Positions 682 through 63,570 of a DNA stretch of 64,000 nt are shown piece by piece (positions within the stretch are counted from its first letter, which is position 1; every line of letters begins with the position of its first letter). The position numbers were made by a program, and so were the translations under genes. Where the stretch lies: contig JADGKB010000001.1 in the NCBI GenBank assembly GCA_027604185.1, forward strand, positions 1-64,000. Direction: 5' to 3'. The notes below the pieces were generated by a model. It saw nothing but the letters and a program-made list of their open reading frames with translations, ran no database searches and was not told the DNA's origin. Source of the stretch: Boothiomyces macroporosus. Lineage: Eukaryota; Chytridiomycota; Chytridiomycetes; Rhizophydiales; Terramycetaceae.

Positions 682-2875
682 ATGTTGACCGCAGATATAA
701 TGGATCCAGCAAAAGTGATTACGGATCCTTCTTTTGAAGACGGAATCCCAGTATTTAAACCGCAGTATGAAGAATTCAAGGATTTTCACAAGTATGTGAA
801 GCAAATTGAACACTACGGATACAAATCAGGAATCTTGAAAATAGTTCCCCCAAAAGAATGGCTGGAGAGAAACTACACCAGTTTGGAAACATTGAAAGAA
901 ATCAAAATATCCAAACCGATTAACCAAACATTCAATTGTGGTGGTTTACCAGCTGGTTGTCAACGGCAATTCAATGTGGAAATGAGAAAGAACTTTAGCG
1001 TTGAAGAATGGCATCAGCTTAGCGAGACTGTTTGTGCTCCACCAGTATTATTGGAAAATGGAAAGATGGCACTGCAAAAGATAAAGAAACAAGTAGATCA
1101 AGATTCTGTGGAAAAAGTTTGTCCAATTATTGACCAGTTTGGGGTAGAAATACCTCAATATATTCATACTCCACCTTCCAGACTTTCTCCAGAGTATCTA
1201 GCTGCTCTGGAACGATTCTATTGGAGAAATGTCTCTTTTCAAACCACAATGTATGGTGCAGATATGCCTGGATCAATATTCACAAATGAAAAAGACAACA
1301 TGTGGAATATATCAAGACTAGAGTCTCTTTTATCAACAATTAAAACTAAAATTCCTGGAGTAAATACGCCGTATCTATACTTTGGACTCTATAAAGCAAC
1401 ATTTGCCTGGCACGTTGAAGATATGGACTTGTTTTCAATCAACTATATTCATTTTGGCGCTCCAAAGCAATGGTATGTTATTCCTCAGGATCACAAGCAA
1501 AAGTTTGAACGATTTGCTCATAGTCTGTTCTTTGATGAAGCAAAGCAGTGTGCCGAATTTCTTCGTCATAAAACATCAGTAATTTCTCCAACTTTGCTTG
1601 AAAAGCAAGGTATAAAAGTGAGCAAGATTGTTCAGTATGCAAATGAATTTATCATCACTTTTCCAGATGGATACCATCAAGGGTATAATACAGGGTTCAA
1701 TTGCGCTGAAAGTGTCAATTTTGCTCTTGAAAGTTGGATTCCTTATGGGAGGAAAGCACACTTTTGTACGTGTATAGACGACAGTGTATCTTTAGATGTA
1801 AATGCACTCTTTGGATCTGATCCAGATGCACCTGTAAAGCCAGCAAAAGAAAAAAAGCAAAGGAGATTACCAAAGAAAAAGGCAAGTTTATTCTAATTTA
1901 GTGTTATCTATGTCCTCTGGGAGAAATGCCTGCTTTTCCCCTGTATGAAACTGATATTCAGGGAGTTTTTTGCCATTACGAATGCGGGTTCTATATTCCC
2001 GAGACTTGGACGGAAATTGACGATTCAAGCCCAGACGAAAGTAAACCGGACGTTGCTGATCAGATTCCGAAAGAAATGGATCCTTCAATTACTAATATTG
2101 AATGTGATAGCAACACGGATAATGTGTCTAAAGAACAGGGTGATCCAAATAACCTGGAATGGATATATCAGGAATCACTAAAATTAGAAGAAATGGAGAT
2201 TGTGAAACTAAAAAGAGAGTTTGTGGAAAAGAATGGAAAGATAATGGGAACAGAACTGATTCCAAAAGACCGATGGCGTTTAAGGTGCAGCTACTGTGCA
2301 TATACTGGACCAGCGGATAACAACCTTGGTGCTTGTATTCAGTGCACAAAAGGGAAATGTTTAACTGCGTACCATGTCTCGTGCGCAATAAAGAAAAAGA
2401 TATTCTTGCAAATGCAAGATGGAATACTGGAAACATTCTGTCAAAAGCATGATCCAGTCAATGTCCAAGAGCAGAAATTGCTGAAAAAGCAACAAAAAGA
2501 ACGCGAATATATCGAAACTTTAACAGTGGGGAAATCCGTGTCTGCTAAAATTGGTGGATCGATTTATGCCGGATCAATTACTGCTTTAGTAGCAAGCCAT
2601 GGTGGCTGTATGGTACTATATGAAGGATCGTAAATATCTTTAACAATAGTCAAGAACCACAATTCACGAAATGGGAATATTTAAAGATCAAGGAAGTAAA
2701 AGTAGTTGAAAAAAGGAAAAGGGTTCCTGTTTACACTGATACTAAACCCAGAAAGAAAAAACTGGTGGAGAAATTAGTTGAAGCTGAATGTGTAACCTTT
2801 CCTATTGGAAATAACGATTCCTCTCTAGAGCTTCCACGTGTATCTCTAGAGCCCTCAGCCAATCAGATATTGTAA
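682..2875 (+). CDS. KDM4: JmjN/JmjC histone demethylase with extended PHD (KDM4/JMJD2 type)
   Basis: This is an Fe(II)/2-oxoglutarate-dependent lysine demethylase acting on histone H3 in the nucleus. Exons are 682-1881, 1902-2629 and 2650-2875 (717 aa). JmjN lies near residues 14-60 (PVFKPQYEEFKDFHKY). JmjC carries the iron ligands H244 and E246 (WHVED) and H332 (GYHQGYNTG). The 88-residue spacing matches KDM4 enzymes. Exon 2 opens an extended PHD module (CYLCPLGEMPAFP, CHYECGFYIPETW, later CSYC...CTKGKC...YHVSCA) followed by a short Tudor-like stretch. Intron 1 is a 20-nt GC-AG intron and intron 2 is GTAAATATCTTTAACAATAG. ATGs at 541 and 643 are in frame but precede the family's usual start, so 682 is chosen; 700 is possible. 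Joining the exons restores the PHD exactly. Confidence 0.9.
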
Positions 2876-3430
2876 TTTGTCAAACTTTGAAACTTTCCTG
2901 TAATTCACTTAATACATTTAATACGTTAAAAGTATGTCGGTTCAAAGCACAACTCCAAATTTTGTACCAGTTGATATGAGTTCGTAGTCGTCACCACGTT
3001 GAGAGTTTAACAAGTTAAATTTCATATTTTGATCAATGTTTATTAAGCAAAAGAGCGATCTATTTATACCAAGTATATGAGTCACACATAAGGTAATAAT
3101 ATATCCTAGAGCATTCCAATCACATCTTAGAATAATGTTGAACATTCTCAACATTGCGATTGTCACATGACACCATTCCAACTATATGAGGTTTCATTTC
3201 TGTTTTTCAGAGTTGTGTAACCATGTGCCATATCAAGATGAACTAGAAAAACATTTTGCAAGGCGACAAACTGCTGCAAGTCGTGGATACATCAATTCCA
3301 ACCATAGAGACCTGATACCGAGCATTTCTATGCCCTCGGTTGACTATAAAACCTTCCATCTTTGAACACCGCCTATTGTGTTTCAAAGGCTTTGATTAAA
3401 GATCCCGACATCCCCAAAAGTTCTCTCCAA
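2876..3430. other. Intergenic, 555 bp
   Basis: I see no conserved gene here. A short ORF starts at 2934 and ends after 18 codons. A minus-strand ORF at 2942-3181 resembles nothing and has no intron signals. The stretch probably holds the 3' end of the demethylase gene and the promoter of the next gene. Confidence 0.5.
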
Positions 3431-5600
3431 ATGAAGTCAACAGAGCTGATCGGCAGTAATGAATCGTTAAAGACTGTGAATCTAATCACTCCCGAGATGG
3501 AATCCATGCGAATGGTAACATAGTTTAATACAGGATGTATTGGAGCTGGATAAACTCACTTGCCAATTCACACTCAAGATGAATGAGGAAATAAAGAATT
3601 TGGAATCAGCAAATAAAGATTCCAAACGATCCAGCAAGCAACGAATGTCAAAGTCAATAGGTAACTATAGTTAATCTAGAAACTCGAAAGAATGCCACCA
3701 TTGTTATGGATGAGCTGTACATTTATCTAAGGAGCATGCGAGAGCTGACTCTAACAATGAGAAATGCAGAGTTGGAAATCTTGCATTCAATACTAGATCC
3801 AAGCCATTACGGCCAGATTCCTCAAGAAATTGTCGATATGCATCGGGTTGAATATGATATTGAAGTGACAGTGCAAGGAATGGAAGCCCAACTCAAACTG
3901 CACACTTCTAAAAGAGAAGAATTGCTCAGACAAAAGACTAATGTGTCAAGTACTGTTTGCTAATGGTAGAAATTGATGGGGAAATATTTAATCTCAAGCA
4001 TGAAACGGTCAAAGCCATGTTGGATTTCAAAGCAGTTGCTCTAGAGTTGAACAAGGTTGAAATTGGGTGGGCCATTCAATGTATTGAATTCTTTACCAAA
4101 AAAGTAACGTCTGGTTAATCTCAGCCAATACAGTCACATGGATATCATGATGGAATGCGCACTCTGACCGATACTGCTGTCCTGCAACCTGATCCTCAGC
4201 CCTTAATGGAAGAAGTGGTGTTCAAAATGCCAAAGCTTTTGAAAAAGGGTACTCTCTCTTCAAACTCTCTAAAGACAGAAAAGCTAAATCCAGGCAATAT
4301 CACTCTACCAGACATAATTGAAGAACATCTAGAAAGCGATATCAAAGAAACCAATTCTGTAACGGAAAATGAAATTGCACCTATTCTTCCTCCTTTTAGA
4401 GAAAACAGCTTTGTTAAAGACACGAATACACTTGCCAACACTCACAATGGTCCTAAAATCAATGCTGAAACAGAAACAGTGGATCGTGTTCAATATGATG
4501 CTAATGATAACGCAAAGACCGAGCCACTAGTTCTAAAAAAAGAAATCATTAAACGATATCCAAACGGTGTTCCAAGAAATGTCCATGTAAGGGCAATGAA
4601 GGAAAGAAATCAATTAGTAGACATGGTATTAAACAGCAAAGTTGACCGAGATAGATTTGTAGAAAAATGGGAACTGGTACATGCAAATGGTGAGATTGGA
4701 AACTTGAAATCTACAATCAGTAAATTACTAAAAACTGTCAATGACCAACAAGAGCTATTGAAAACAAAAGAAGATGAAAATCAATGTTTGAAAAAGCAAC
4801 TAGAAGATTCGAAAAGAGATTTTAATGTTCAGCAAGAACTTGAACAGAATTTGGAAGCTGAAAACAAAGAGTTGAAAAAGACAAACTCTGAACTCAAAGA
4901 AAATCAAACAAGATTGTCATCAGAGGTTGAAACACTGAAAATAGAGATTTCTCAATCGGAATCAAACAACATAATGTCGTTGCAAGAAGTTGAAAAGCTA
5001 AAGACTAATTTAATGGCAACACAGACAATGTTGGCTACGGTGCAGTCAAAACTAGTTGAATCAGCGCACTATATGACAGAAAACAAAGATTTAAAAGTAG
5101 AAAATCAAGTATTAGGGTTAGAGATGGAAAGACTAGCCAATATAGAGAAATCAAGAAATGATTTAGTATTTGAAAACCAAGCTCTAAGAAACAAGCTGGA
5201 ATCAAATGAGCATAAAGAATTTATACAACAAGAATTTAGAATAGAAAAACCTAGAGAATTTCCTGATGGTATCCCAAAAAAAGAGTACGAGAGGGCAATA
5301 GAAGAACGAAACAGACTAGTAGAAATGTGCAAATTATTGTCCATCAACTTGCTTGAAAACGGGGTTGAAGAAATGTATATTACAGTTGCGAAAAAAGTAG
5401 GAGGGATTAAACAACGATTAGCATACTCGGATAAACAGAATGGACGGTTGAGAAATGAAATATTGCAGTTGAAGCAAGAAATTGAACGGTTGCGCTGTCT
5501 CCCACTATCCCCAATGCCGTCTGAATATGAATCTGAAGTTTCTGAAGAGTTTGTGTGGTTGAGTCAGCTGGAATCAATAATTGCATCTGATGCATTTTGA
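3431..5600 (+). CDS. Helical (BAR-like) N-domain plus long coiled coil, paralog A
   Basis: Function is unknown. Exons are 3431-3514, 3534-3660, 3680-3949, 3970-4103 and 4125-5600 (696 aa), with introns of 19, 19, 20 and 21 nt. Residues about 20-205 form an all-helical domain that aligns with the N-terminal domains of the genes at 31367-33882 and 38281-40778 and resembles BAR-type membrane-curvature domains in pattern. A coiled coil follows. Two copies of a signature are present: YPNGVPRNVHVRAMKERNQL and FPDGIPKKEYERAIEERNRL, the second followed by LLENGVEEMYITVAKKV. Intron phases 0,1,1,0 equal those of paralog C, supporting common descent. The stop codon overlaps AATAAA. The name BAR-like is inference. 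Confidence 0.75.
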
Positions 5601-6574: not shown

Positions 6575-7288
6575 ATGAATCAATTGAACTTGTTGAAGAA
6601 TGAATTCAAACATTTCATGTCTGGGATTTTGGCAATTGGAAAACAAACCGGAACTACATTGGGACACTGGGTTAATGTTCGAGAGACTGGTTTAGTTTCA
6701 GGTAGCTTGAATTTAAAACAGAAAGACGAATTATCAGAAATGTTATCCGCAACAAACAAGACTTGATTAAATTTGTACCTGGAGTCTGTTATATAGTGCT
6801 ACCAATGACTATCCCAACTCTTCCGTTTGTATTTAGGGTATTCCCAAACTTTTTACCTTCAACTCTGTATTCACCAAACTTGTTAAAGATTAAATTGGAT
6901 ATTCTGATGAAAAAGAGAAAGCCGTTAAACGATCCTACTGACTTGGAGATTGCCAAGTACCTAGGAATGCCACTCCCATTTCTATTCACAAAAGCAAGAT
7001 TATATCAAAGATTTGATTGGCTTTTAAAGGATGATTTGTTGCTACAGGAATTTGGAGTTAAACGATTAACTGAATATGAGTTGGTGGAAGCTTTAGAGGA
7101 ACGAGGTAAGATTTGTTAATCAAGGGTTCAAGCAAGTTTATCCTGAAAATGAAGATTACACTAAACAAAGAAAAGATTTAATCAAGTATCTCTCTTTGAG
7201 TAATCAGACTGCAAGACAGTACAAGAAAACTCCTCAAGATATTTACACAATTGGGAAAATCTTGGTTACCAAAGTGTCAAACATGTAA
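6575..7288 (+). CDS. LETM1-domain protein (mitochondrial inner membrane)
   Basis: LETM1-family proteins sit in the mitochondrial inner membrane, affect K+/H+ or Ca2+ exchange and bind the mitoribosome. Exons are 6575-6701, 6722-7105 and 7125-7288 (224 aa). Removing the 20-nt intron GTAGCTTGAATTTAAAACAG joins VSERRIIRNVIRNKQDLIKF to a hydrophobic segment (VCYIVLPMTIPTLPFVF) and FPNFLPS, the classic LETM1 core. The ribosome-binding-like helices follow (LGMPLPFLFTKARLYQRF, then LTEYELVEALEERGF). The protein is much shorter than LETM1 itself, closer to LETMD1-size members. No clear mitochondrial presequence is visible, so the N-terminus could be incomplete. The second intron, 19 nt, restores EERGFKQVYPENE. 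Confidence 0.8.
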
Positions 7289-7351
7289 GCATTAAAGTCT
7301 ATTATTGGTATCATTTTTAAAAGATTTTGTATTGCTGTAAGATAAATGATG

Positions 7352-7598
7352 CTTGATTGCCTTATCAAGTGACTCAATTAGAGAAAGATCCTTAATTGCC
7401 TTATCAAGTGAATAAATTAGAGAAAGATCCTTAATTGCCTTATCAAGTGAATCGATTAGAGAAAGATCCTTAATTGCTTTATCAAGTGAATCAATTAAAG
7501 AAAGATCCTTGATTGCCTTATCAAGTGACTCAATTAGAGAAAGATCCTTAATTGCTTTATCAAGTGACTCAATTAGAGAAAGATCCTTAATTGCTTTT
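7352..7598. repeat. 39-bp tandem array, about 6 units
   Basis: Near-identical 39-bp units contain the core TTGCCTTATCAAGTGA. Read on the minus strand they are open in every unit and encode about 13 residues (SLIDSLDKAIKDL). The frame equals that of TRAPPC2L directly after its stop codon. On the plus strand one unit contains a stop. The last unit has an extra base next to the TRAPPC2L stop. The array lies between two convergent genes. Confidence 0.85.
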
Positions 7599-7600
7599 AT

Positions 7601-17200: not shown

Positions 17201-18103
17201 TTATTGAGTTTGTTGCTCATGGCGTCAACTCAATTAGAAAATGCCTTCAACTCTGTTGAAAGACTATCAGTGTATTGTGAAAAGCTTCCAATGGAAGGTG
17301 CCGTAAAGAAAGAAACCGATCCAAGCTTGGAGCAGTGGCCCTCGGTCGGAAGCATTGAATTCAGAAACATTGTGATGGCATATCCGTCTCGGCCCGACTT
17401 GCCTGTGCTCAAAGACATTTCCTTTGGGATCAAAGCGGGAGAAAAGGTTGGTATCATTGGCCGCACGGGGTCAGGAAAGTCCAGCTTGATGACTGCGCTC
17501 TTCAGAATAGTTGAGCTGTCCAGCGGCTCTATCGTCATCGACGGCGTGGACATTTCATCGATCGGACTCGACGCTCTCCGCAAAAGCATCCAGATCATTC
17601 CGCAGGAGCCAGTGCTGTTCACCGGCACAATCAGGGACAACCTCGATGTCGAGGCACTGTACTCCGACCCTGAAATCTGGGAGATCCTCGGGCTGATTGG
17701 ACTAAAGGACTATGTGTCGTCGCTCACGGAAAGGCTGGACAGCCCAGTTGCTGAGAATGGAGAGAATCTGTCGGTTGGACAGCGCCAGCTCATCTGTCTT
17801 GGACGAGCTATCCTGCTGAAGCCCCGCATATTGATCATGGACGAAGCCACGGCGTCGGTTGATGCAGAGGCAGACAAGCTGATCCAGGCATCGCTGAAAT
17901 CGCACTTTGCCAACACGACGGTGCTGTCGATTGCCCACCGCCTAAACACAATCGCCGACTTTGACCGGGTGCTGGTTCTGGAGTATGGCGAAAAGAAGGA
18001 ATACGACACTCCACACGCTTTGCTTTCCAATCCGTCCAGTCTGTTCTCTCAACTAGCTGGAGCTACTGGCGCTACTAATGCAGCGGGGCCAAGGTTGCCA
18101 TAG
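14231..18103 (+). CDS. ABCC (MRP-type) ABC transporter, short form
   Basis: This is an ATP-driven exporter of organic anions or conjugates. Exons are 14231-15187, 15208-16454, 16475-16809 and 16830-18103, with three 20-nt introns. The layout is TMD1-NBD1-TMD2-NBD2 without the extra TMD0, as in ABCC4-like members. NBD1 has Walker A GPVGAGKSS, signature LSGGQ and Walker B VILDDP with the ABCC-typical Asp in place of the catalytic Glu. NBD2 has GRTGSGKSS, LSVGQRQL and ILIMDEATASVD. The coding sequence runs straight into a duplicated copy at 18085. The natural C-terminal tail, seen after the second copy, is replaced here by a few out-of-frame residues (GPRLP) and a stop at 18103 (1,270 aa). Function may still be intact because both NBDs are complete. 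Confidence 0.9.
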
Positions 18104-20553: not shown

Positions 20554-20596
20554 CCTCCTACGTGACATTGCTAAAGACAAACATAATACAAAATAA
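18085..20596 (+). pseudogene. Truncated second copy of the ABC transporter
   Basis: This copy starts at the NBD1 Walker A and so lacks its own promoter, ATG, TMD1 and the first part of NBD1. It retains TMD2, NBD2 and the original C-terminal end (ALLRDIAKDKHNTK, stop at 20596 overlapping AATAAA). Introns map to 18924-18943 and 19279-19298. The junction is out of frame with copy 1: the frame from copy 1 stops at 18103, so no read-through fusion is made. The first internal ATG (18157) lies after Walker A, so a product from it would have a defective NBD1. I treat it as non-functional unless the assembly is wrong, in which case this is the true 3' end of the gene above. Confidence 0.8.
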
Positions 20597-34002: not shown

Positions 34003-34132
34003 GAGATTAATTTGGCAGATATTTTACTCATTTTTGGTACGCAGTAATCGGCCAATTAAAAGTCTTTTTAATAGTGGACCGAAAATCAGAAAAAGTAGTT
34101 TATAAACCTCTAATCAAAAATCGTTCCTGGTT

Positions 34133-40778: not shown

Positions 40779-40874
40779 TTTGGAGCTTTTGAATTGTTGC
40801 ACAATCACGTGACTTCTTTGGAGCAAACCGAAAATTCCGAGCTGGATACAAAGAATACAGGAAAATTATAGCGA

Positions 40875-46840: not shown

Positions 46841-47883
<1,043 letters not shown>

Positions 47884-49768: not shown

Positions 49769-50662
49769 ATGAACAGTATTAACCGTAGTGCTGCTACCAA
49801 AAGAGTTACTCCAGAATCTGTCTTGAAGAAGAGAAAGGCAGTTGAAAAGAACGCTGCTGAAAGAGTTGCCAAGGATATCGAACGCAGAAAGGTAAGATTG
49901 ATAAAGGCGGGGTGATGACTCTTTTTTGATTAGCTAGCTTTGGCAGTGTTGCTATCGTTAACCATCTTTCGGGACTGACCGTCATTCATTTTATAGAACA
50001 AGGCTAATTTTAGGCAAACAAGGAAAAGAGAAAGGTCATCTTCAAGCGTGCTGAATCCTATGTCAAGGAATACCTTGCAAAGGAAAGAGACGAAGTCCGT
50101 CTCGCTCGTGAAGCCAAGGCACAAAACTCTTTCTACGTTCCAGCTGAAGCAAAGTTGGCCTTTGTCATCCGTATCAAGGGGTATAGATTTTTCTAATTTC
50201 AGTATCAACAAGATTGCTCCAAAGCCAAGAAAGATTCTTCAATTGCTCCGTCTTACCAAGATCAACTCTGGAACCTTTGTCCGTCTTAACAAGGCTACTC
50301 TTCAAATGTTGCAATGGGTTTCTCCATACATTGCATGGGGTTATCCAAACCTCAAGAATGTTCGTGAACTCGTCTACAAGAGAGGTTTCGCCAAGGTTAA
50401 CAAGCAAAGAATTCCAATCACTGACAACTCTGTCATTGAAACTGCTCTTGGACAATACGGAATCATCTGTGTTGAAGATTTAGTTCACGAAATCTTCACC
50501 GTCGGACCAAACTTCAAGCAAGCTAACGCTTTCTTGTGGGCTTTCCACCTCTCCAACCCAACCGGTGGATTCAAGGGCAAGAAGGTTCCTCACTTTATTG
50601 AAGGTGGTGAATCTGGAAACAGAGAAGACCACATCAACGCTCTCATCCAAAAGATGCTTTAA
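49769..50662 (+). CDS. RPL7: 60S ribosomal protein L7 (uL30)
   Basis: uL30 is a component of the large ribosomal subunit. Exons are 49769-49891, 50014-50180 and 50203-50662 (249 aa, the usual size). Matches cover the whole family: [75 protein letters not shown] and [20 protein letters not shown]. Intron 2 is 22 nt and ordinary. Intron 1 is 122 nt, by far the longest in the window, and contains a box C/D snoRNA. AATAAAAT lies a few bases after the stop. Confidence 0.97.
49906..49983 (+). ncRNA. Box C/D snoRNA in RPL7 intron 1 (predicted LSU rRNA 2'-O-methylation guide)
   Basis: Box C GTGATGA is at 49912-49918 and box D CTGA at 49975-49978. The flanks GGCGG (49906-49910) and CCGTC (49979-49983) pair to form the terminal stem, with one G-U pair. 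The guide ACCATCTTTCGGG at 49961-49973 is complementary to CCCGAAAGATGGT, a conserved segment of 25S/28S rRNA. By the box D plus 5 rule the target is the G of CCCG, which I take to be the position yeast numbers G805 (guided there by snR39b; SNORD2/snR39B in animals). Yeast RPL7 introns host the related guides snR39/snR59, so the host gene also fits. The numbering is from memory. Confidence 0.85.
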
Positions 50663-50760: not shown

Positions 50761-53745
50761 ATGATCACATTCTTCCTTGCCCTAAAGGTATTGGCTCAAG
50801 TAGAGTGGTAACAAGTTAGTAATCCAGGGGCTATACAATATCTACGCAGATTTATTCTACAACAACAGCAAGTTGGCTCACTCCAAACACGCAATATTAT
50901 ATTAATATCTGGCTTGCTAATGACGGAACCAAGTGCGATACATGTACATATTCAATATTCAATAACGGATCTAGCCCGTTAGTAATTATCCCAGTTACTG
51001 AAAGTGTAAAGGTAACCTCAACGGCAAACTCGTCATACTATTCCCAATCTCAAACCTTGTGGTCTTTCCCAGTCACATTTCAGTCTTTTGGAATATTAAA
51101 CTTGAATATCACTTCATCTTCTCCTCTATATTACAATGGATCAACAATACTGCCACTGGCTGCTGAACTGTCGGTGAACTGGATTTCTCCACAGACTTTT
51201 TCGATTAGTAGCACCTCCCCAAGTGGCATATCGAGTATCAAAGTAAATACTGCTCCTGGAATCGAGACATTATGGTCAATATCCACCAATAACGGTCTGT
51301 ATTTTTCAGTGGACGAGTTTAACACGCTTTACCAAATAGCCTTTAATTTAGAGTCTAAACTGGGAGTATCTACCGATATTTGCACCGGATCACAAATATC
51401 TACCATCTTGTATACTGATTCATATTTAGCATCGAATGTATTGTACTTGGCATCAAACGTTGGATTGATTATGGGTAGTTTAAACAATGGGACAGTGTCT
51501 TGGGAAATTGTGTTGCAAAAGTGTATTAAAAAGTTGGTGAAAAGGACCCAGCAAGGAACTACGCTACCCACCTGGAACCCTGTGGTTGTAATTGGAAATG
51601 GTACCGATTCAGGAAACATTTGGTACTCGAATGTTACCGGAACTGGATTAACCAAAGCTACTTTAATTAACACGGTATTCAGTTCTGCAACTTCTGTGCA
51701 AATAATTGATGCAGCATTTTCAATCATTCAAGAGAATGTTTTCACTGTCCTTGCACTGGTGGACGGAGTGTATTATCTCTTGCAGTATTCAACTTCTTTG
51801 ACAAGTTGGACGATAATATTCAAGTTTCCAACCAAGATCAACCAAAGTAAATTTCCCTAAAAACTAGTAACTAGCAGTAGTGGTATTAAGGCAGAAATCG
51901 TATGGAACGACTTGACGGATTCTTTGAACACTGTTGGAGCTAATAATCTTTCACTGTCACTCACTAACCTATACATGCACAATTCCCCTTCCCTAGATCT
52001 ATTTATAACCGGAAACTGCTTACTGTATTCACCATCGCTTGGCCAGTCCCTTTTAAATTACAACACCGTTGCAAACAGCTCGATAACTTTATTTACTTCC
52101 CACCAAAACGGGAGGTTTCTAGTTTCTACCGCCGACAACAGGTTTTTTGAAGGATATGTTGGAGTGGGATACACTTTTGAGGTACAATCCCCAGTCCAAG
52201 GTATTACCGTTCCATTCTATGGAAATGGCGGACAGCTTAAAGTACTGGCAGCAAACAATGGCAATATTAATGTTGCTAGCTACAACAATTCGTTGACTGA
52301 CCCATCTCAATGTTTTTACTCGACCAAATATTACCAGTACGATTCACTTGTCAAATATAATACCATCCCTACGCTGCCCACGTTCACGCCAGTTTCTTTT
52401 TACAGGGTTTCAAGTCTACCAGAAATTGTGTATTTGGACTATAAAGAAAACTTTAGATTTGAAATGATTCTTGTACCTGCAGATTGGAGTCAAGCAGACA
52501 CATTAGATTTACATCTCCAAGTGACAAACAATCAAATAATAACCGTAAATTCAACAAAGGATTTAGACTATCTGCGAAAATGTATTCGATTCACCGTAAT
52601 TACCATTAAATTAGATTACAATTTCTGATAATGGGATATTATTGCGGGACACAAGCATCTTGACTTCATCTGTTAGGTTGATGATGACAAATGACAATTT
52701 GGGATGCCATAGCTCTCTGATGGTGTTAGAAAATTAACCAAAGGACACTTCACAAACAATCACAGTATATTCAGGTTGCTCAGGGAGTCTGTCCTTGACC
52801 CTAAATTCAACTGCTTTTCCATCTTGTGCCTCAACGAATTTCCTATATCCATGCATACCATTTCAGCCAAGTATCCAGCATTAAATGTAGCATTCTATCC
52901 TAATTTTGTAATCGATGATGCAATAACTGGAGAAAACAGTTCATTTATTTACGACTTTTATCTCCAAGTGGTGGGTGGTGGATCGTCCAATGTAAGATTG
53001 ACAAACTATACGACTGATCAAATTAGCTCGTACAATCCAAACTCAAAACTTTCTAATTACAACTCTCTGATTTATATCATAACGAATAACGATGCAACAA
53101 ATGATTTTACTTTCAATGGCTCTGACACATCTACTGGTATAAAGTAAAGAGCAATTAATCACTAGTTGGAAATGTAAAGCTGGATCGCCTTGCTACAATA
53201 TCCCTGCAACCAACTTTGGCTCTACCCCATTCTATTATTTCACGTTGCAAATCACCGCTATCCCTTCATCAGATACAATTGAAACTTATTGTAACCTTAA
53301 CGCCAATATTACCGTTGGGTTAGTTCACATTCCCGCCTCACTTGAAACCCAGCTTTTATCAATATTTATAACAGCCCTTATCTGCTTTTTCTTTACTGGT
53401 ATATACTTTTGGTTCAGTGAAGCGATAGTTCACCCAGCAACTCCTCCAGAAGAAAAGAACACGGTGCGCTTCTTCAATATAGAAGTTGATGATCAATTCG
53501 AGCGCAAAGCGTCATTAATTATACCTCCCTCTACAAAGCTCCATCCTACGATCGCGGAAGAACAGGAAGAGGTGCTTGATGTGCAATTGAAAAACGGGGA
53601 AGAGCTGGAAGAGCAGTCTCCCGACCTGGATGCCCCAATGGATATATCCGATTCTAGCGATTCTGACATTGAACCAAGCGGTTCGCTGCATGCTTTGAAC
53701 AAAATCGGATTGAGTCTCTCAACTTCAAAATTGAATAAAGAATAA
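50761..53745 (+). CDS. CATSPERB: CATSPERB-like auxiliary subunit of the CatSper channel
   Basis: CatSper is the flagellar calcium channel of sperm; CATSPERB is a single-pass subunit with a large extracellular part. Exons are 50761-50807, 50828-51846, 51868-52595, 52615-52722, 52744-52870, 52891-53143 and 53166-53745, with introns of 20, 21, 19, 21, 20 and 22 nt (953 aa). A signal peptide (MITFFLALKVLAQVEWG), a long ectodomain with many N-x-S/T sites, one TM helix (LLSIFITALICFFFTGIYFW) and an acidic tail are seen. Family-like blocks appear only after splicing: LGCHSSLM, SGCSGSLSLTL, YPCIPFQPTFYPNFVIDDAI, YDFYLQVVGGG, then WKCKAGSPCYNIP and ETYCNLNANI before the TM. The C-terminal third is the most convincing part. 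Confidence 0.8.
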
Positions 53746-53760: not shown

Positions 53761-54887
53761 TTAACAACTACCGCGATAATCGTCCAGCACAATGTCTTCT
53801 ATATCACTATCATAGCCAGAAAACCACGGCTTCTTTTTAATTGCAACCCTCCACCAATTACGGTAAGCTTTAATTAGAGTGTCGGCAGCAACAGGGGATT
53901 TCATTGCGTTTGCACCGTGCAGTAACCGTCTTTGCTGCCCTTTAAGCATTTCATAGTCCTCCATTAGAATTTTGTAATTCATGCGGCTAATTATTCTGTC
54001 CATTACCCATGAGAATATCGGTATTTGCGAGAATGTGTGGAAGAATGTGAATCTTTGCAAAATAACAAATCGGCAGTGACCTTTGGTAGTTGGAATGACA
54101 TAGAATCCTTGTTCTCCATAAGAGTTTTTTTCTTTGGTAAAGATTTTAAGTCCAATTGATGACGGTGGAAAGAATATGAATTCAGTAAATGGCAAGTGTG
54201 GTGCATGAGGTGTATCCGGTATTCCAGATACTTGGTCTCTGGTAAAGTTCATAGCCATCCTCATTGGAGTTGCATCTGCGCGTTTACCAATCGTTCCAGT
54301 GTGAGTAAATGGTAAATGAGACGGATCCAAAAAGTTTTCCAGCAACAGGGACGCATCAATATCCAAATCGAAATATTCTAATCTTGGAGGGAAATCTAAT
54401 TGAGGATATAGGTGATGAAAGTTAGGAGTAGGTGCAGAATTGATATCTTCTGGATTACCTGGCCACAACCAGATGTATCCATCAGATTCAACTAAAGGAT
54501 AACTTCTGGCTTTTGCATTAGCAGGGATTTTCCGGCCATCCATCAAGCTTGGTACTTTAACCACTGTTCCCTCTGTATCGTACTGCCATCCATGATATTT
54601 GCATTCCAGCTTGCCTTCCAAAATAGCTCCAGTTGACAATGGTGCTGATCTATCGTTAAATCCGAATACCTGTGAGCGCAGATATCAGCTAGTGCTACCG
54701 CCTCTAGTGTAACTGGGTCTCTGTATAGGACAATTGGATCACCCAACAAATGAAATGCGGTTGGCTTTTTCGATGAAATTTCGCCAACTGGGAATACTGG
54801 ATACCAGCCTTTCCTCATATCCGCCGTTTCAAGATAAAACTGCTTTCTCTGAGCCTCTTGGTCATCCAAATCCTCCTCTTTTGTCAT
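53761..54887 (-). CDS. Rieske-type oxygenase, pheophorbide a oxygenase-like
   Basis: Rieske non-haem iron oxygenases oxidise small organic substrates. Coding order is 54887-54670, a 20-nt intron, then 54649-53761 (368 aa). Splicing completes the Rieske cluster: CAHRSAPLSTG and CKYHGWQYD (CxH ... CxxH). The mononuclear iron site is NFLDPSHLPFTHTG (D-x2-H-x4-H). The arrangement and the C-terminal part resemble the PaO/Tic55/Ptc52 group known from plants, algae and cyanobacteria. No transit peptide or signal peptide is obvious, and I see no clear C-terminal membrane pair. The substrate is unknown. The 3' end is about 15 bp from the CATSPERB stop (convergent). Confidence 0.85.
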
Positions 54888-54950: not shown

Positions 54951-57632
54951 CTATCCATGATTTACAGATCGCTGATTACTTCCAAAATGCACGAATACCC
55001 CTTCCCATCCATAGTGGCTTGCCTCCCGTTGGTAATCTTTTATGCACTCTGAGTCAATATAATTATTTTCGCATTCCAATGTAACTGTGGTTGTTCTATA
55101 TTTCTTGCATCCAATAGATCCGCCTTCCTTGCAAGCGCGTAAGCCTTTTGAGGTCAGCTTGTTGAAAGCCAGCTGCCATCTTTTGACGTGCCATAAATCT
55201 CCTCTCGACCACCCAATTCCCAAATTTTGACCAAAAACATCACCAAATCCCATTCTCTCAAATACAACCGACCTGACAGTTTTGGAAAGTCTAAGCGCTT
55301 TTAATATTTTCGATTCGTTCATTCGCATTCCAGATAAATTTAGTTTTGAAATATTTGAGGAAGGAAGCCATTCCATAAGAATGTCTGCCAAGTCTGAATC
55401 AATCGTATTGTAAGAAAGATCTAGCGCTTGAAATCTATCTCCATCTACACTGTTGAATATGGTGTTTATTGATCTTGGTATCAAGCTGCAGTTGGAAAGG
55501 TCAAGCTCTACTCCCGATCTTGTCATCACCCACTGGGTAAGTTGCTGCAATGACGTAGAGGGAGCTGTTCCTGATAAATCCAGATCTCTGATATTCGTCT
55601 TGATCAAACTTTCAGTCAGCAATCTCATCCCTACATTTTGAATGGCATTATTTGACAGCCCCAAACGATCTAATTTTGGGAAAAAGGCAAGATACTGCGC
55701 TAGAATTTTAACAGCTTCAGCATTCTTGGCATCTTTTTCTGATATAACTCTGGAGCATTCAAATTTTTGCAATTTACTTGATAGCGGTACTTTGCTGGAC
55801 ACCAGTGCTGTCAAAATACCGATGAGGCCTTGAGAAGTAATCAGAGTGTTTGAAATATCAATTTCAACCAATGAGAGAAGCATACCACCCAGCTTCAACA
55901 CTTCGGACAGCTTATTAGCTCCATCTGGTCCTAAGCAAAAGTTTTTTAACACGAGTTTGGTAATGTGGGGAAATAAATACTCTGTTTGGATGATTGAAAA
56001 TGAATTGCAGTAATTTGGAGTATGGTATCCTGGTTTTTGCTTTACAAATGAAACTGAAATTGGTAGAGCTTTTTGGCAAAACTGTTCGGTTTTTTGGAGC
56101 TCTTCCTTTACTGGCCGGTCTAAATATTCCGACAGACTGTTAATTCCTTGAATGTTGAACCTATTTTCAGGAACCATATGAACATGCTTGGGGTGTTCTC
56201 GTTGTATCTTTGTGGGTTTTGGTTTTGTCAAAGTGGGATTCAAACAAAATGGTGAAATATCAGTAAGCACCTTTTCACACAAATCGCTAGTAATGATATT
56301 GAGTTTGATTTCAATTGACGGATATACCTGTGCCAAGCTAGTAAAGAGTGCAGTCAGGCCTTCGTTGATGTGTGAGCAGTTTATCGTAATCAACTTTAGC
56401 ATTATGCAATTCGAAAACACATTTTTCCAAAAATTTAAATCTAGTCTGTCATATCCTTGCTCCAAGTAGATATCCAGTTCAACCAGCTCCTTTCCTTCAA
56501 ATTTTAGTACTTTAAAAAGGAGTTTTCGAGAGATTGATGCTCCTTTGGCTATTTTGATCAGAATCTGACTGACATAAAACTCCAAGCAGACTTTTTTCGC
56601 CAAAGATATGATACCCGTTTGTAAGGAGGGTACTAGTCTTTCCGGCCACCTTGATTCAATGTTTCCCCAGCCCAACATCACTTTCCAAAATTTATCCATC
56701 CAAACAGTACTCACATCAACAGTCAGTTTTTCCACAGTGTTGTTGATTTCTTTAGGGATCAGTTCATGTTCAGCGATAACTAGCTCGCCTATACTCACCA
56801 AGCGCAGTATACTTCGAATCAATGGCGCTGGTATCCCTTGAACAGAGTCCACACCTACTTTAATTATAGTTACGATGAAATTCCGCTGCAAGCTTGTTTA
56901 TGCATTCATCAACAAGCTTAGCTAAATCCAGGTATAGTCCAGTATCCATCAAATCAAGGATATGCTCACAAGGTATTTCAAATTTACTAAACATGCTTGT
57001 ATCTGCTTTAATTGTTGCTAAATAGGAACGATTAAGAAATTCGTGAACTAAATCAAATATTTGGATTGAAATCGTTGGAAATGATAATCCATACATGCTT
57101 TCTTTGAATTTTTCTAAGTCAGGTACCACATACTGCTGGAATCATGGATGTGTTTTATAGTTGCGGACTGAAACAGTATGGATTCTGGTAAGACCCTTTT
57201 GGAGTTTGCAATGTATATTGTAATCATTTTACAGTCCCCAAGGTGAGATTGGGCCATTTTCTCTATTCCTTTCCTTTGTATGATGATCCATTCGCGGTCC
57301 TCCTCATCCTCTAAATCGGGAAGGATACTTTCTAGGTGCTTTTTAGGTAAAGTATTGATTCTTGACACCTCTCCAAGATACTGCTTTTTCGATTCCACGT
57401 CAATCAGTTTTGGAGATTGATGATTTAACTTTGGAAGATGCTTCTTTGTAAGTGGATAATTTATCATTGATTTGTCGGATTTTGTGTGTGTTAAATTCAA
57501 TCCAATGTCGATATTCTGACTGTTTTTCCAGTGCTTTGACACGTTCGATGGCAACTTGGCCTTCTCCTGAAGTTGACTGGGATTAAAGTACTTTGCGATA
57601 TTCAGAGGATTGCTAGCAAAACTTCTTTCCAT
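54951..57632 (-). CDS. Elongin C/SKP1-like BTB domain fused to leucine-rich repeats
   Basis: Coding order is 57632-57134, 57113-56874 and 56854-54951, with introns of 20 and 19 nt (880 aa). After a polar N-terminus, residues about 145-245 look like the BTB/POZ fold of elongin C/SKP1: ITIYIANSKRVLPESILFQS, then ISIQIFDLVHEFLNRSYLAT, FEIPCEHILDLMDTGLYLDL and LVDECINKLA. A cullin-adaptor-like helix pair (GIPAPLIRSILRLVSIGELV) follows. The rest is a set of RNI-type LRRs (DRLGLSNNAIQNVGMRLL, RDLDLSGTAPS, QALDLSYNTIDSDLADIL). The layout suggests a substrate receptor that carries its own adaptor fold, but the function is inferred from domains only. Confidence 0.7.
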
Positions 57633-57678: not shown

Positions 57679-59145
57679 TTAGACCCAAGTGAAAATAAGA
57701 ATCAGGGCGTAAAATGATAGCGTCGCCCCAATCATTTCTCCATTGAGCAGTAGCCAAATCTTTCTAAATGGTTTCACTTCGTGTGCTTTGCTCGGCAAAA
57801 TAGCTCTCCTAGAAGCTCGCTTGTATGCAATAAAAGTATTGTAAACTAATGAAATAACTAGCAACGCAATATACCAGAAATATATATGCAACTGTGGTGG
57901 GAGCGAACAAGCGTTTAATTGAAATGAAGGGCTTTCAGGAGTACTTGGGGCTGCAAAATTTGGCCTGAGAGATAAGACTCCAAAACCTGGGTATATATTT
58001 CCTTGAAGCCAGCTAAAGGTTGCTAGTGAGTGCTGCGTTAATGATACTGTACCTCAAACACTTTAAAGCTGCCCTGATCATGTGTATATTGACAGTCATC
58101 GTGATCATCTCCAGAAATAACCAAGCTAGGTTTCAGTATTCCCAGAATTTCATTGGTCAAGTGATATTGGATTAAATCTGTATTAATTCGCGATTACTCT
58201 GATACTGATAGCCCTTTCTGTTTGTTATTGGCTTGAAATGCCTTATTGGCCCACAATCAGCATTTTCAGGCCTGTATAGTGGCACATGAGATATCAAAAT
58301 AGTTTTTTCTGGATTCAGTTTTGGTTGATCCAAAGATTTCAAAAATGCATACGCAGTTTGAAATGGTTTTGCATCCGGCTTTCCTGACAATCCAATAGTG
58401 TCTAGTGCTACTATGGAATGATTTGCGATATGTGTAATGCTATTCAACTTGCCAAAATGTTCTAAATATCTACTATAGGCATGTGGAACAACTGCGGTTA
58501 ATTAATAGATTACTAGTTTCTCCAAATCCAATATCGTGATTACCCGCTACTCCCAGCGTAATTGTTTTTGGGTCTCGCAGGCGAAATATATTCCTGAATC
58601 TAGATAGTTCTTCGTAAAAGCTATGTTAATATCAAAATACTCTTTGTCGTTCCAATGCCTTCCACCATCCATTAAATCTCCAGCAAAGATGACTACATTT
58701 GGCTTCAAATAGTATTGCAACAGGTCGAAATTCCGTTTCATGTACAAGTCAGAATAGAATTGAGTCAGCGACAGCAATATCCCCTGCATTAGCTTCTAAA
58801 TACCTTTTCTTGTTTGTATGAGTAGGCATCCGTCAGCTGAGGATCCGCAATTACCAGTGCATTTACTTGTTTTGCCCTGTTGAGGGTCAATGATGGCCAA
58901 GAACAACTCCAGACGTAAAAGCGGATTTGCAAGACTTCAAAGAAAAGCAAATTGAGAATCCATACCAGTGCAAACACATTTGTTTTCCTGATATTTTTGA
59001 AATATCGAACCAAGAAATTCCCGCTTTTCTTTGCCAGCGACAGGAATATAAATAATGCCAGCATTACGAAATCGAATATTGCGCTGCAATCGAAGGTGAC
59101 CATCTTCCCATATATGTGCTGTATATTTTTTTGAAGGTCCTCCAT
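57679..59145 (-). CDS. MPPE1: MPPE1/PGAP5/Cdc1-type metallophosphoesterase
   Basis: This family removes ethanolamine-phosphate from GPI anchors in the ER/Golgi. Coding order is 59145-58804, 58783-58641, 58620-58514, 58491-58198, 58177-58053 and 58032-57679, with introns of 20, 20, 22, 20 and 20 nt (454 aa). Metal-site motifs are VIADPQLTD, GDLMDGG, VAGNHDIGFGE, SHVPLYR and SGDDHDDC. Two N-terminal and two C-terminal hydrophobic helices anchor the protein. An ATG at 59277 is in frame, but it would overlap the first EIPR1 exon on the other strand, so 59145 is preferred. The divergent start codons are then 24 bp apart. Confidence 0.9.
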
Positions 59146-59169: not shown

Positions 59170-60258
59170 ATGAGCGTGTGTGGACTTGCAGAACCAGTAC
59201 TCGAGGATTAAAATAGGCTCGCTGTTTAGTACCGCAAGTCGGAGAAACAGAGAAAAATCGATGGCTGGTTGGGACATACGCCAGAGCTAATAATAAAGTA
59301 TATCTGATAGATTACAATGAGGATGACGACCTAGTAACCAGCACCGAATACAACCACAACTCTAGAGTTTCATTCATTGCGACAGGGTCAAACAAGAACT
59401 TGATTATCACAGGTCATGACGATAAGGCCACTCTGTGGGCAATGAACGAAACCGAACTAGAAAGTATATCCCAGCTTCCAGATACATACAAAATCAAAGG
59501 ATGCGCGTGGTCCAATAACGGCAAGCAGGTAATTGGATACGGGAATGAAACTATGGAATTGTTTAATCTGGATAAGTCAATGGCATTTCTGCAACCCCAA
59601 CAAAAGATTAGTTGTCCTGAACAAGGCATAAATGCCGTACAATGGAATCCGCATGACGATAAGCAGATTGGAATTGCGGCAAATACGGCTATTTACGAAA
59701 TAGATTTACGAAGTGGACAGTATCTTTTGCTTATTTAGGAAAACTTGCGAAATAACAAAAGCACATGAGCTGTTGGTACGAAATTTGGACTATAATTTAA
59801 ACAAACCGTATCATTTCGCCTCGTGCGGTGATGATTGCATGATTAGAATATGGGACGCGAGGAATACTTCAAAGTGCTTGCTACAAGTATCAGACCATAG
59901 CCACTGGTAACTCAAAATTTACTCAGGGTATGGGGAGTCTCATTCAACAAGTACCATGATCAACTTTTACTGAGCTGTAGCTCAGATTGTCAAGTAAATT
60001 TACAGTCTGTCGTGTCTGTATCATCCGCTCTGCTTCACGAATCTGTTTTTAGTCCTGGACAAGAGGAAGAAAAGTAATTGAAACTAACAAAGTAAAACAA
60101 CTGATGGATTAGTACATTCATATGACCAGCATGAGCATTCAGTCTACAGTGCAGCTTGGAGCCCTGCGGATCCATGGATATTCGCTTCAGTTTCATTTGA
60201 TGGGAGAGTAGTCGTGAATTTTGTTCCTCCAGAGCAGAAATACAAGATTATCTTGTAG
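59170..60258 (+). CDS. EIPR1: EIPR1 (TSSC1) WD-repeat protein
   Basis: EIPR1 partners the EARP and GARP tethering complexes in endosome-to-TGN traffic. Exons are 59170-59196, 59217-59719, 59739-59906, 59927-60073 and 60093-60258, with introns of 20, 19, 20 and 19 nt (336 aa). The 27-nt first exon gives MSVCGLAEP, joined to ARCLVPQVGETEKNRWLVGT, matching the N-terminus of the family. WD blocks are VRNLDYNLNKPYHFASCGDD, MIRIWDARN, DHSHWVWGVSFNKYHDQLLL and HSVYSAAWSPADPWIFASVS. It ends 23 bp from the MRC1 stop (convergent). VPS45 in the same window acts at the same organelle, but the two are not clustered. Confidence 0.93.
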
Positions 60259-60281: not shown

Positions 60282-62578
60282 TTATTTCTTGATCAGATCT
60301 TTCAACTTTGGTCCTTTGGAAACTGTCTTTACAACTTTGACTTTCTTTGTGGTATTAAAGTTGATTACATTTTCCTTCTTTTCTACATCGCCAGTTTTCT
60401 AGATTAGGATAGGTTACTTTGATTTTGAATGCAGACGCCGACTTGTTTATCATCTTGACGTGGCCTTGATTATCACCAGTGTATACTGAAGTGTCCATTG
60501 TTTGTATTGATTTCTTGGATAACAACCGGGTCGAACTAAATCGTGATAGCACTGATTTTTGCACTTTGACATTAGTTTCTGATTTCGACTTGAAAATTGA
60601 TTGAATGATTTGGCCGCCAATGTTTTCCGGTAAAGAATGCTGAGAAGATGAAACACTTTCCAAGTCATCCACAGAAACTTTTTTGATTCTATGAGCATAC
60701 TTGTTAATCTTGCTAGGCTTTTCTTTTAATCTAACCAGCTTTGCCAAATTTGCAGATTCCAAAACATCGTTTTCTTCATCTGAAGATAACAAAGCAGCTT
60801 CTTTTGTCATGAAACAGTTTGCAAATTCTTTGGTCTTTTCATTATCCACTAGATTAAAGATATTTACAAAGTTGGGAGAGCTTGTCTTTGTTTTGATCCT
60901 CTTTTTTCTTTTTGGCATTAAATCCCATTTGAGCCCTAATTTTCTTTAATATTTCCTCTCCTTCTTCGTCTGAATCGTAAAACTGAATTCCTCTTGCACG
61001 CTTCTTTTTGAACCCGCCAGTGATGTCTTCAAGAACCTGCTTTACTTGCTCTGCGTCCATTTCTGCTAGTTGTTGACTGTATATTAGTGAGCAATTACTG
61101 GTGGATATCAAGCAAGTCTTCTCCGTCAACAGCTTTACTATCTACTTCTGCAATCATATCAGCTTCGTATTCATTTACACCAGCATCTTCCCCATCAATA
61201 CCACCATGATTCAGGAACTCGTCATCTTCAACGTCGGCTTCTATTTCAACGAACCCATTCTTTTCGGTTCCTACTACTGGTATTTTTTCAGGAATGACCC
61301 ATTCTATTGGTTTTTGCTCTGCATTCGTTTGTACATTAACAACCTGTTCAGCTTCACTTTCTTCCTCTGCACTAGATTCTTCATCCTCTTCTTCTGACTC
61401 GCTAATGAGATCTTCAATGTTTTTCCCAAGTAATGCAGAATCGCTGGTGAAATTGCCAGACAACAGATTTAAAAGTTGAGAGTCTTGCTCAAGCGATACA
61501 TTCTCCACAGGAGTATCTTGAGACAGTGAATCTTCAATTACTTTTTGCTTTTGCTGGATGGATTGGGATTCTGTGGTGTCCGTAAATTTCCCGGATAAAA
61601 GCGAAAAGATATTTTGACTGATTTCCACCTGTGTATCACTGACTTGCGCAGTATCCGGACTTTCAATTGCTGGTAAACTTGTTTTGTAAGTCAACTCTGC
61701 CGACGGCTGAGATTCTTTATGTTCGTCAAAGAATTCATCTTCATCTGTGCAATAATCCAGTGCAATTGGCTCAAAATCATTTACGACTTCTTTTTCATCC
61801 TGAACAACTTCACTCTTTTCTACTTCAATCGTATCATGTGGTAAATCATCAACAATTGCTTCATTTTCGACATTCATCTCTGGATCGTTAAAAGTACCAG
61901 GATTGATCCCCATCTCTTCCACCAACTCTTGCTTTAGTTTTTCCTCTTCGCGCTTTCGTCGTTCCTCCTTCCTTGCCCTTCTTTCTTCGATTCGTCGCTC
62001 TTCTTCCCTCTTCATCTCTTCCTGCATTTCCAATCTCCTTTGCTCCAACTGTCTTTTAGCCAGTTTCAACATTTCCTGATTTAATCCAACTTTTTTCTTT
62101 TCCGCATTATTCGATATTTGCTTTAAAGATGGTTTTTTAATTATTTCAATTTCTATATCGCTTTCATCTGGTTGCGCATCCACTTGGATAAGATGATCAG
62201 TTTTGGGTTTAGTATTTACAGGTTCCTCGGCAGCTTCCGGAATGAAATCTGGTTCAACTTTCTTTTGATATTTCTGTAGGAATTTGTTGATGGATAGTTT
62301 TGATTTAGCAACCGGAAGTTCCACATGTAATTCTACGTAAATCTGTGAATACCTCTAATAGCTTTTTGGGAAGTAATCTGTGCTTCTATTCTATCCTTTT
62401 TCGTTGGACGTTTGGGGACGTTAATGTAATCATAATTACTTTCATCTGACTCATCGCTTAAATACGGCTCTTCTGTTGCTGGAGCAGCTTCATCCTGGAC
62501 TTGCGCTTCTTCTTGTTGCTGATCTTGCACCGTTTCTTTTTCCACTTCTTCATCAGAGCTGTCTATTATTTTTCGCAT
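60282..62578 (-). CDS. MRC1: MRC1/claspin replication-checkpoint mediator
   Basis: Mrc1/claspin rides with the replication fork and relays the ATR/Mec1 signal to the effector kinase. Coding order is 62578-62353, 62332-61099, 61076-60868, 60848-60418 and 60398-60282, with introns of 20, 22, 19 and 19 nt (738 aa). The protein is highly acidic, with Ser-Gln sites (for example VSDTQ, TESQS, LSQ). A Glu/Arg-rich helix lies near residues 140-190. The conserved core is VEIEADVEDDEFLNHGGIDG, then VNEYEADMI, AEQVKQVLEDITGGFKKKRA and IQFYDSDEEGEEIL. The stop overlaps AATAAA. The homology is strongest in that core, and the rest is of the expected disordered type. Confidence 0.85.
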
Positions 62579-62677
62579 TGCGATTAGGAAAAAGTTTGAT
62601 TTTCGGACATTTAATCATTGGCTCAATCAAATGCGATTGAGAACCAAGTAGGGTGGAATGCTTGGTCTACAATCCGC

Positions 62678-62781: not shown

Positions 62782-62874
62782 CTTGGCATTCAGGAATATT
62801 CCAGTTACTATTATTGTATAGCAACACGATAATCTCCCGTATTTTCTTTTTGCTGTCATTTCATCTTTGCGTGG

Positions 62875-63570
62875 ATGTCAAGCTTTCTCGCAGTACCAGG
62901 CGGAAGCAATCAACAGCAGCAGTCATCAACTGAGCCCGAATTATTATCATCAACAAGATCACTATCAAGAAATTTACCAGCAACACGTTCATTCGTTGCT
63001 TCTAATGGGAGTAGCAGAAGGATCTCTGTAACTAAAAGAAAAAAGATATTTACAAAGGAAGAAAAGAAAGAGATTGAAGGAATATTCAACTTGTTTGATA
63101 CCGATGGTTCAGGGTAAGACTTTACTTACGAGAACTATGGAAACCGCAGAGTTATCCGTGGTACTATGGGCAATGGGATTTCAACCCGAGGTAAATAAAA
63201 CTAAACTAGCCTGGCGAAACAGAGGAAATGGTGGCTGCATTCTTCATGTGTTCTCTGGAAGAGGCTCATGAAAAGTCAATTACAGTAGAAGAATTTGTGG
63301 ATCTGATGGTGGAAAAATTGGTATTAATGGACTAATTTCGCCTACAAGAGATATCTCCCAAGGCCTTCGCCAAAGCTTTCAAATCTACGATGCAGACAAT
63401 AAAGGGTTCATAGTCATGAAGGACATCAAACGCGTATGCAAAGAAATTAATGAATCTGTGTCTGATCAGGATCTAGAAATGATGATGAGCCATAGTATTG
63501 CCAGATTAACCTAGTCGATAAGAGTGGGGATGGGAGCGTAACAATAGACGAGTGGAGTAAATCATTCTAA
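62875..63570 (+). CDS. Centrin-like EF-hand protein
   Basis: Centrins are calcium-binding proteins of basal bodies and spindle poles. Exons are 62875-63113, 63133-63190, 63210-63320, 63341-63494 and 63515-63570 (205 aa). After a Ser/Gln-rich N-terminus come four EF-hand units: FDTDGSGTMETAEL (canonical), a degenerate second hand (ITVEEFVDLM), YDADNKGFIVMKDI (third) and IDKSGDGSVTIDEW (fourth). Introns 1, 2 and 4 are 19, 19 and 20 nt GT-AG. Intron 3 (63321-63340), needed to keep the frame between hands 2 and 3, would end in CG. If not spliced, translation stops after VEKLVLMD. The order fits centrin better than calmodulin, but the extension and divergence leave room for another centrin-related family. 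Confidence 0.75.

Follow-up and report, generated by a model that had tools for sequence, protein, structure and literature searches.

Predicted introns of about 20 nucleotides in the genome of the chytrid fungus Boothiomyces macroporosus

Contig 1 of the genome of the soil chytrid fungus Boothiomyces macroporosus (Terramycetaceae, Rhizophydiales, Chytridiomycota) opens with a stretch of 64 kb in which the reading frames of many genes are interrupted by segments of about 20 nucleotides (nt). What are these segments, and what could hold them to so narrow a length? The original prediction took them for spliceosomal introns, nearly all of which are about 20 nt long. We analyzed this stretch, called the window below, together with 25 stretches of 10 kb, one from each of 25 other contigs. 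In total, this makes 314 kb of a genome of 15.2 Mb (15,203 kb, 216 contigs), and the counts below refer to this sample unless the window is named. All introns described here are predictions from the DNA sequence and protein homology. On these grounds it is highly probable that the segments belong to the major class (U2-type) of spliceosomal introns, and the RNA would be spliced at these sites. Their length of about 20 nt lies near the lower extreme known for any organism.

Length distribution of the predicted introns

A count that uses no gene model was made of GT..AG segments that join two open frames of at least 150 nt on each side, the frames being unjoined unless the segment is removed. 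Four decoy dinucleotide pairs served as controls; lengths of 10–79 nt were scored singly and those of 80–149 nt as a mean. At 19 nt, 112 GT..AG segments were counted, against 67, 45, 66 and 58 for the decoys. The corresponding numbers were 125 against 57, 56, 70 and 45 at 20 nt, 63 against 24, 13, 14 and 10 at 21 nt, and 78 against 61, 50, 57 and 58 at 22 nt. The excess over the decoys is clearest at 20 and 21 nt, and no comparable peak was seen at the remaining lengths of 10–79 nt, nor in the mean of 80–149 nt. When a cruder count of patterns was restricted to the window, the signal was clear on the minus strand (23 at 20 nt) and weak on the plus strand (11 at 20 nt versus 9 in a reversed-sequence control).

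The same lengths were recovered by a two-strand gene-structure model, which started from equal probability for all intron lengths of 10–400 nt and a splice matrix limited to GT and AG, and was then re-estimated. The first run, with GT donors only and a stiffer penalty on gene starts, called 518 introns, 447 of them at 18–23 nt. On the four decoy pairs the same model placed 12–32 introns at 18–23 nt out of 296–391, with no peak. In this run 66 of the 518 introns exceeded 25 nt, and a handful of them was inspected within the window. Two turned out to be missed GC-AG introns and others resembled intergenic gaps; therefore the penalty was lowered, so that genes ended more easily, and GC donors were allowed. 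This first version of the model was set aside in favor of the final run.

The final run called 490 introns in 172 gene models, and 463 of them are no longer than 25 nt: 2 of 18 nt, 111 of 19 nt, 202 of 20 nt, 86 of 21 nt, 46 of 22 nt, 11 of 23 nt, 3 of 24 nt and 2 of 25 nt. The other 27 are scattered between 30 and 388 nt; they persist after the penalty was lowered and GC admitted. The genome-wide histogram foreseen as a check in the original prediction, made here on the sample, has its mode at 20 nt and no second mode, and its lower edge is sharp, with 2 introns at 18 nt versus 111 at 19 nt. Its shape is unchanged without the window, the 25 other stretches showing the same distribution. When the length prior was reset to flat, 336 of 436 called introns were still at most 25 nt long, and 264 of 398 when the branch information was removed as well. 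In 14 held-out loci (49.6 kb outside the training set), the learned prior gave 72 of 76 introns with a length of at most 25 nt, and the flat prior 55 of 71. Coding sequence carries on average about 1.9 short introns per kb (463 in 245 kb). Scaled up from the sample to the whole genome, their number is projected at roughly 22,000.

In the window the final model called 78 introns. The narrow range described for it earlier holds, since 73 are 18–22 nt long; the other five measure 72, 122, 293, 293 and 388 nt. The earlier figure of about 85 introns is above our count and is nevertheless plausible, because the final model misses some introns, for example within 36788–37080. There it bridges the sequence with one 293-nt intron, inside which lie a 46-nt candidate (36788–36833, plus strand) and a 19-nt candidate (at 36876). 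Of the two long exceptions named earlier, the one of 122 nt is supported by the alignment of RPL7, and the candidate at 36788–36833 would fit the one of 46 nt. A separate class of introns of 46–52 nt was considered from this candidate and those at loci L016, L023 and L029, and there were too few to claim it; the L029 candidate itself contains a 19-nt candidate. Three of the set (L016 9744–9789, L023 5449–5500 and window 36788–36833) carry ACTAAT or ACTAAC, possibly marking a minor longer class.

Splice sites, branch element and conserved junctions

Of the 490 introns, 485 have GT-AG and 5 have GC-AG ends. The GC donors were seeded from the GT matrix (4 rounds), and six decoy donors were seeded likewise (3 rounds): GA, GG, CT, TT and CC took no introns and AT took one. 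Unseeded GC donors admitted at the start were not taken, and their prior dropped to zero. All five GC-AG introns are preceded by AAG or CAG; four start with GCAA, three of these with GCAAG. Two lie in the window. One of 21 nt is in Vps45 (35130–35150, minus strand), and one of 20 nt follows AAG in a KDM4/Rph1-like gene (1882–1901, plus strand). The latter was called by the gene model, the GT-only version of which had bridged it with a 104-nt intron; the solved-structure alignment of the KDM4-like gene stops before this junction.

The internal anatomy was determined on the 452 introns of at most 25 nt from the first model. The 5' site reads GTA, commonly followed by A or T, with GTAATT as the commonest hexamer (56 of 452) and G at +5 at a frequency of about 0.18. 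The interior has a G+C content of 25%. A full YTRAY branch motif is present in 330 of the 452 introns, compared with 72 of 452 when the interior is shuffled. A good motif was available for 440 introns. Their branch A is the 14th or 15th nucleotide of the intron in 366 cases and stands at positions 16–18 in 51, and in 368 it is followed by a tail of 5 or 6 nt. The branch-like element near the 3' end lies where the original prediction described it. The consensus of U12-type introns is absent from the 20 commonest 5' hexamers of the 452 introns, all of which are of the GTA type.

The segments might instead be removed from the DNA or skipped in translation, and in ciliates excised DNA elements of similar size exist. 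The GT or GC..AG ends, the branch element and the matching small nuclear RNAs (snRNAs) described below are the signs expected of splicing, and we consider this explanation barely credible.

Whether the junctions are real can be judged from homologous proteins. For Vps45, encoded on the minus strand, the best 120 of 3,407 homologues were aligned, one of them the deposited protein of B. macroporosus itself (P0011). A junction was called ungapped if there was no gap within five residues, and homologues with both flanks present were scorable. At six of the seven junctions, 110–119 of 112–120 scorable homologues are ungapped: 34506–34525 (20 nt; 118 of 120, identity 0.87), 34631–34649 (19 nt; 119 of 120, with an identity of only 0.24 around the junction DEDIK/LVDSL), the GC-AG intron 35130–35150 (119 of 120, identity 0.72), 35355–35373 (19 nt; 117 of 119), 35863–35883 (21 nt; 115 of 116) and 35950–35968 (19 nt; 110 of 112). 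At the seventh (34368–34386, 19 nt) 50 of 119 are ungapped, and the alignment has gaps nearby. The homologous proteins do not contain the intron segments. The protein assembled by removing the seven short introns is 100% identical to P0011, which is two residues shorter at one junction, 35355–35373. Since P0011 is already free of all seven segments, the annotators' software has met such introns.

Other genes gave a similar picture. Both junctions of DIM1 (46890–46909, 20 nt, and 47017–47037, 21 nt, minus strand) are ungapped against the solved dimethyladenosine transferase 6w6c, and both junctions of RPL7 (49892–50013, 122 nt, and 50181–50202, 22 nt, plus strand) against the solved L7 chain 7olc. 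The first DIM1 intron and a 20-nt intron of an ABC transporter gene (16455–16474, plus strand) are the two examples given in the original prediction, and both were found where it had placed them. In ASH2 (plus strand) the junctions are preserved in most, not all, of the six homologues shown. FHQ/(Q, E or D)C at 24544–24563 (20 nt) is kept in four of the six, with P0131 lacking those residues, and HW/KQ at 24773–24791 (19 nt) is also kept in four. ANEQSKK/AR at 24997–25015 (19 nt) is kept in three close relatives, the others having diverged. At 25175–25193 (19 nt) all six have AI before the junction and YPD two residues on. At 25545–25564 (20 nt) four of six have GY before the junction and GDV two residues after it, P0131 and P0133 lack residues before it, and the junction is ungapped against solved ASH2. 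In an NADPH-oxidase-like (NOX-like) gene with a 19-nt intron at 29923–29941 (minus strand), DLKELGD is intact across the junction in Terramyces P0001, P0003 is ungapped and P0002 is three residues short. The WD40-like gene was left out of the junction comparison, its matches being generic WD40 ones only.

In three places, then, deposited proteins are short of residues that homologues keep: P0011 of Vps45, P0002 of the NOX-like protein, and P0131 and P0133 of ASH2. The losses adjoin the short introns at 35355–35373 (minus), 29923–29941 (minus) and 25545–25564 (plus). P0002, P0131 and P0133 belong to other strains or species and are known here from the proteins alone. Because these residues are missing beside short introns, public Boothiomyces and Terramyces gene models may be mis-spliced there.

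That relatives' deposited gene models differ at some junctions could also be expected if the segments were annotation artefacts, that is, frameshifts, sequencing errors or pseudogene lesions bridged by a chance GT..AG. Such an origin is very improbable in view of the fixed length, the common branch motif at a fixed place, the decoys without a peak and the conservation of the junctions in proteins of other fungi.

Splicing machinery and the possible lower limit of intron length

A survey of spliceosome components was among the checks proposed earlier, and most of the parts sought were found. The 5' end of the U1 snRNA is AUACUUACCUG, with the canonical box intact, at a match of 68.8 bits, just under the gathering threshold of 69.5. 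GUAGUA of U2 is present in two gene copies, the ACAGAGA box of U6 is intact, and a U4 match lies over its threshold, U4 being detected by score only. U6atac was not found in the genome search, and such a search cannot show absence. Matches to SF1, Slu7 and Prp18 exceed their cut-offs. Introns measuring 21, 22 and 24 nt occur in the SF1 gene model itself, and one of 21 nt with GC-AG ends in that of Prp18. The N-terminus of Cwc25 is MGGGDLNLKKSWHP, in which MGGG is present; the glycine plug that is missing in Stentor (PMC9505925) is thus intact. Cwc25-type (Cir_N) matches with identical scores were seen at C49:3542–3652 and C100:5137–5247, perhaps two haplotypes in the assembly.

Several observations weigh against major-class introns of this length. 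The U2AF large subunit, counted as found in the survey, matches below its cut-off (230.7 versus 310.3 bits) over about 300 positions; the match crosses four stop codons, as is expected of exons parted by short introns. U5 was not found in the genome search, which cannot show absence. The flat length prior left 100 of 436 called introns above 25 nt, only a handful of long calls having been inspected, and 134 of 398 when branch information was also removed. The best branch motif falls at positions 10–12 in 23 of 440 introns, where it was possibly mis-picked. When further acceptors were admitted, AC took none, while TG took 10 introns (7 at 18–23 nt), AT took 3 (2 within 18–23 nt) and GG took 1. 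The introns ending in TG may represent non-canonical 3' ends or shifted calls.

How could such introns be recognized? We suggest that introns across the sampled genome have been shortened to about the least length usable by a spliceosome whose examined parts are canonical. GTA(A/T)(T)(T) at the 5' splice site, YTAAY at the branch and YAG at the 3' terminus would be packed end to end, and the floor of 19 nt would arise from three stretches that are unable to overlap. The first, some 6 nt long at the 5' end, would pair with U1 and later with the ACAGAGA box of U6. The second, of about 8 nt, would form the duplex with U2 from which the branch A bulges at position 14–15, and the third would be a tail of 5–6 nt that leads to the 3' splice site and is too short for a polypyrimidine tract. 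If the duplexes of the 5' site and of the branch with U2 abut, the branch A can come no closer than position 14, which would give the floor of 19 nt. In the course of evolution, deletion would have shrunk the introns until this floor halted the shrinkage.

Some longer introns may survive through the cargo they carry. The only well-supported long intron, the 122-nt intron of RPL7, holds a putative C/D box small nucleolar RNA (snoRNA) similar to snR39/SNORD2 (49908–49980, plus strand). Its match to RF01197 (25.5 bits, E 0.026) is below the gathering score of 40, and no Rfam family reached its gathering threshold either in the window or in the remaining 250 kb. In the RF01197 alignment, its GUGAUGA, CUGA and ACCAUCUUUCGGG agree with the family consensus. 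Yeast snR39 likewise sits in an RPL7 intron. The simplest reading of this one case, with its sub-threshold match, is that the intron stayed long because of the snoRNA.

A different cause of shortness would be selection, for instance through nonsense-mediated decay of retained introns, rather than deletion bias against a structural floor. In-frame stops were indeed found in 60 of 75 introns of 21 nt and in 178 of 294 introns of 19 and 20 nt pooled, a count that is biased because the gene model sees stopless introns of a multiple of three less well. Moreover, introns of 21 nt (86) are not depleted relative to those of 22 nt (46). We regard selection as a rather unlikely explanation.

The floor may also be compared with still shorter introns. 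In the heterotrich ciliate Stentor, introns of 15–16 nt with the branch A at 10/11 and a 5-nt tail occur in 18% of genes (PMC9505925). In Stentor, parts of branching factors reaching into the active site are different, which may make room for a tiny lariat loop (PMC9505925). Boothiomyces resembles it in the near-fixed length, AU-rich composition, fixed branch position, 5-nt tail and canonical snRNA boxes (PMC9505925). It differs in having the branch A at 14/15, a clear YTAAY consensus, a conserved Cwc25 plug and introns in 113 of 144 gene models (first model). A specially modified spliceosome, of the kind proposed there from altered branching factors for introns of 15–16 nt (PMC9505925), is unlikely in Boothiomyces on the parts examined: unlike in Stentor, the glycine plug of Cwc25 (MGGGDLNLKKSWHP) is intact, the key boxes of U1, U2 and U6 are canonical, and matches to SF1, Slu7 and Prp18 were found. 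In Stentor, where the branch A is at 10 and a strong branch consensus is lacking, it may be the recognition itself that was shortened. We tentatively propose that the fungus has independently arrived at the shortest intron physically possible for an unmodified spliceosome (19 nt, given by abutting duplexes, a branch A at position 14 or later and a 5-nt tail), and that Stentor-like lineages could reach 15 nt only by dropping sequence recognition and altering branching factors.

Remaining introns of the window and other genomes with very short introns

The remaining introns of the window were called by the final model. On the plus strand, those of 19 nt lie at 3515–3533 (in a coiled-coil gene), 3661–3679, 7106–7124, 26768–26786, 28065–28083, 52596–52614 and 63191–63209, and at 59720–59738 and 60074–60092 in the WD40-like gene. 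Those of 20 nt lie at 2630–2649 (KDM4-like gene), 3950–3969, 6702–6721, 27281–27300, 27898–27917, 28412–28431, 29449–29468, 37870–37889 and 52871–52890, at 15188–15207 and 16810–16829 in the ABC transporter gene, at 18924–18943 and 19279–19298 in its partial duplicate, and at 59197–59216 and 59907–59926 in the WD40-like gene. Introns of 21 nt were placed at 4104–4124, 27756–27776 (LRR-like gene), 29193–29213, 51847–51867 and 52723–52743, and introns of 22 nt at 37182–37203 and 53144–53165. An 18-nt candidate at 36680–36697 comes from the gene model alone.

On the minus strand, 19-nt introns were called at 33562–33580, 33677–33695, 40134–40152, 56855–56873, 60399–60417 and 60849–60867. The 20-nt introns are at 32995–33014, 33181–33200, 33437–33456, 40453–40472, 40615–40634, 54650–54669, 57114–57133, 58033–58052, 58178–58197, 58621–58640, 58784–58803 and 62333–62352. 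Those of 21 nt are at 20753–20773, 39979–39999 and 42135–42155, and those of 22 nt at 58492–58513 and 61077–61098.

The ABC transporter gene has a partial tandem duplicate with identical introns (about 15690–18103 and 18157–20596, plus strand), from a recent duplication or an assembly artefact. Three coiled-coil genes (3431–5600, plus; 31367–33882 and 38281–40812, minus) are related, sharing motifs such as FPNGIPKEEY and a Y(I/F)TVA stretch. The two paralogous genes at 42756–43298 and 45059–45595 (minus) resemble genes for secreted RNase T2. Short tandem repeats lie beside genes at 7292–7595 and 33950–34130 (minus), with AIKDLSLIESLDK-coding units and units with TCAATCTCT.

To the lineages with comparable introns named in the original prediction, ciliates and the chlorarachniophyte nucleomorph, the mikrocytids, with introns of 16–17 nt, should be added (PMC10245619). 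In the nucleomorphs of Bigelowiella and Lotharella most introns are 18–23 bp long, with 19 nt the most abundant (PMC4035089). Boothiomyces shares with them the numerous short introns, the GT-AG ends with a few GC-AG (two in Lotharella) and an A bias at -2 (PMC4035089), whereas it is a fungal genome of 15 Mb in which U1, U2, U4 and U6 were found. The parasitic mikrocytids have 224 introns, and their spliceosome is strongly reduced (PMC10245619). The likeness lies in the extreme shortness, narrow range and conserved sequence of the introns (PMC10245619). In contrast, the density in Boothiomyces is about 1.9 short introns per coding kb, and the few spliceosome parts tested give no sign of reduction. 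Paramecium likewise has only ultra-short introns; it belongs to another lineage, and its introns, around 25 bp, are longer and show documented selection on lengths divisible by three (PMC5014332).

Among fungi, Chytridiomycota are said to keep a high intron density, and the same survey counts the introns of Cryptococcus (mean 63 bp) as relatively short, the excerpt mentioning none close to 20 nt (PMC8476143). The excerpts of PMC6572847 and PMC5364385 give no intron lengths. Among the matches listed in open-licence PubMed Central, to which the search was confined, with subscription literature outside its scope, there was no report of ultra-short introns in a chytrid or another fungus. Boothiomyces, with a mode below about 25 nt, a narrow range, a sharp floor and a fixed branch position in the sample, fits the ultra-short-intron genomes and is apparently an independent addition to them, judging from taxonomy.

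For annotation, this means that gene finding biased against such introns will mis-predict proteins here, since deposited Boothiomyces and Terramyces proteins seem to lose residues at some junctions. For the biology of splicing, it raises the question of how an RNA of this size can be handled by U1, SF1, U2AF and U2, and of what fixes the lower limit. Boothiomyces is an intron-rich fungus, conserved in the spliceosome parts tested and from the same kingdom as the yeasts with solved spliceosomes, which would make the minimal workable intron directly testable.

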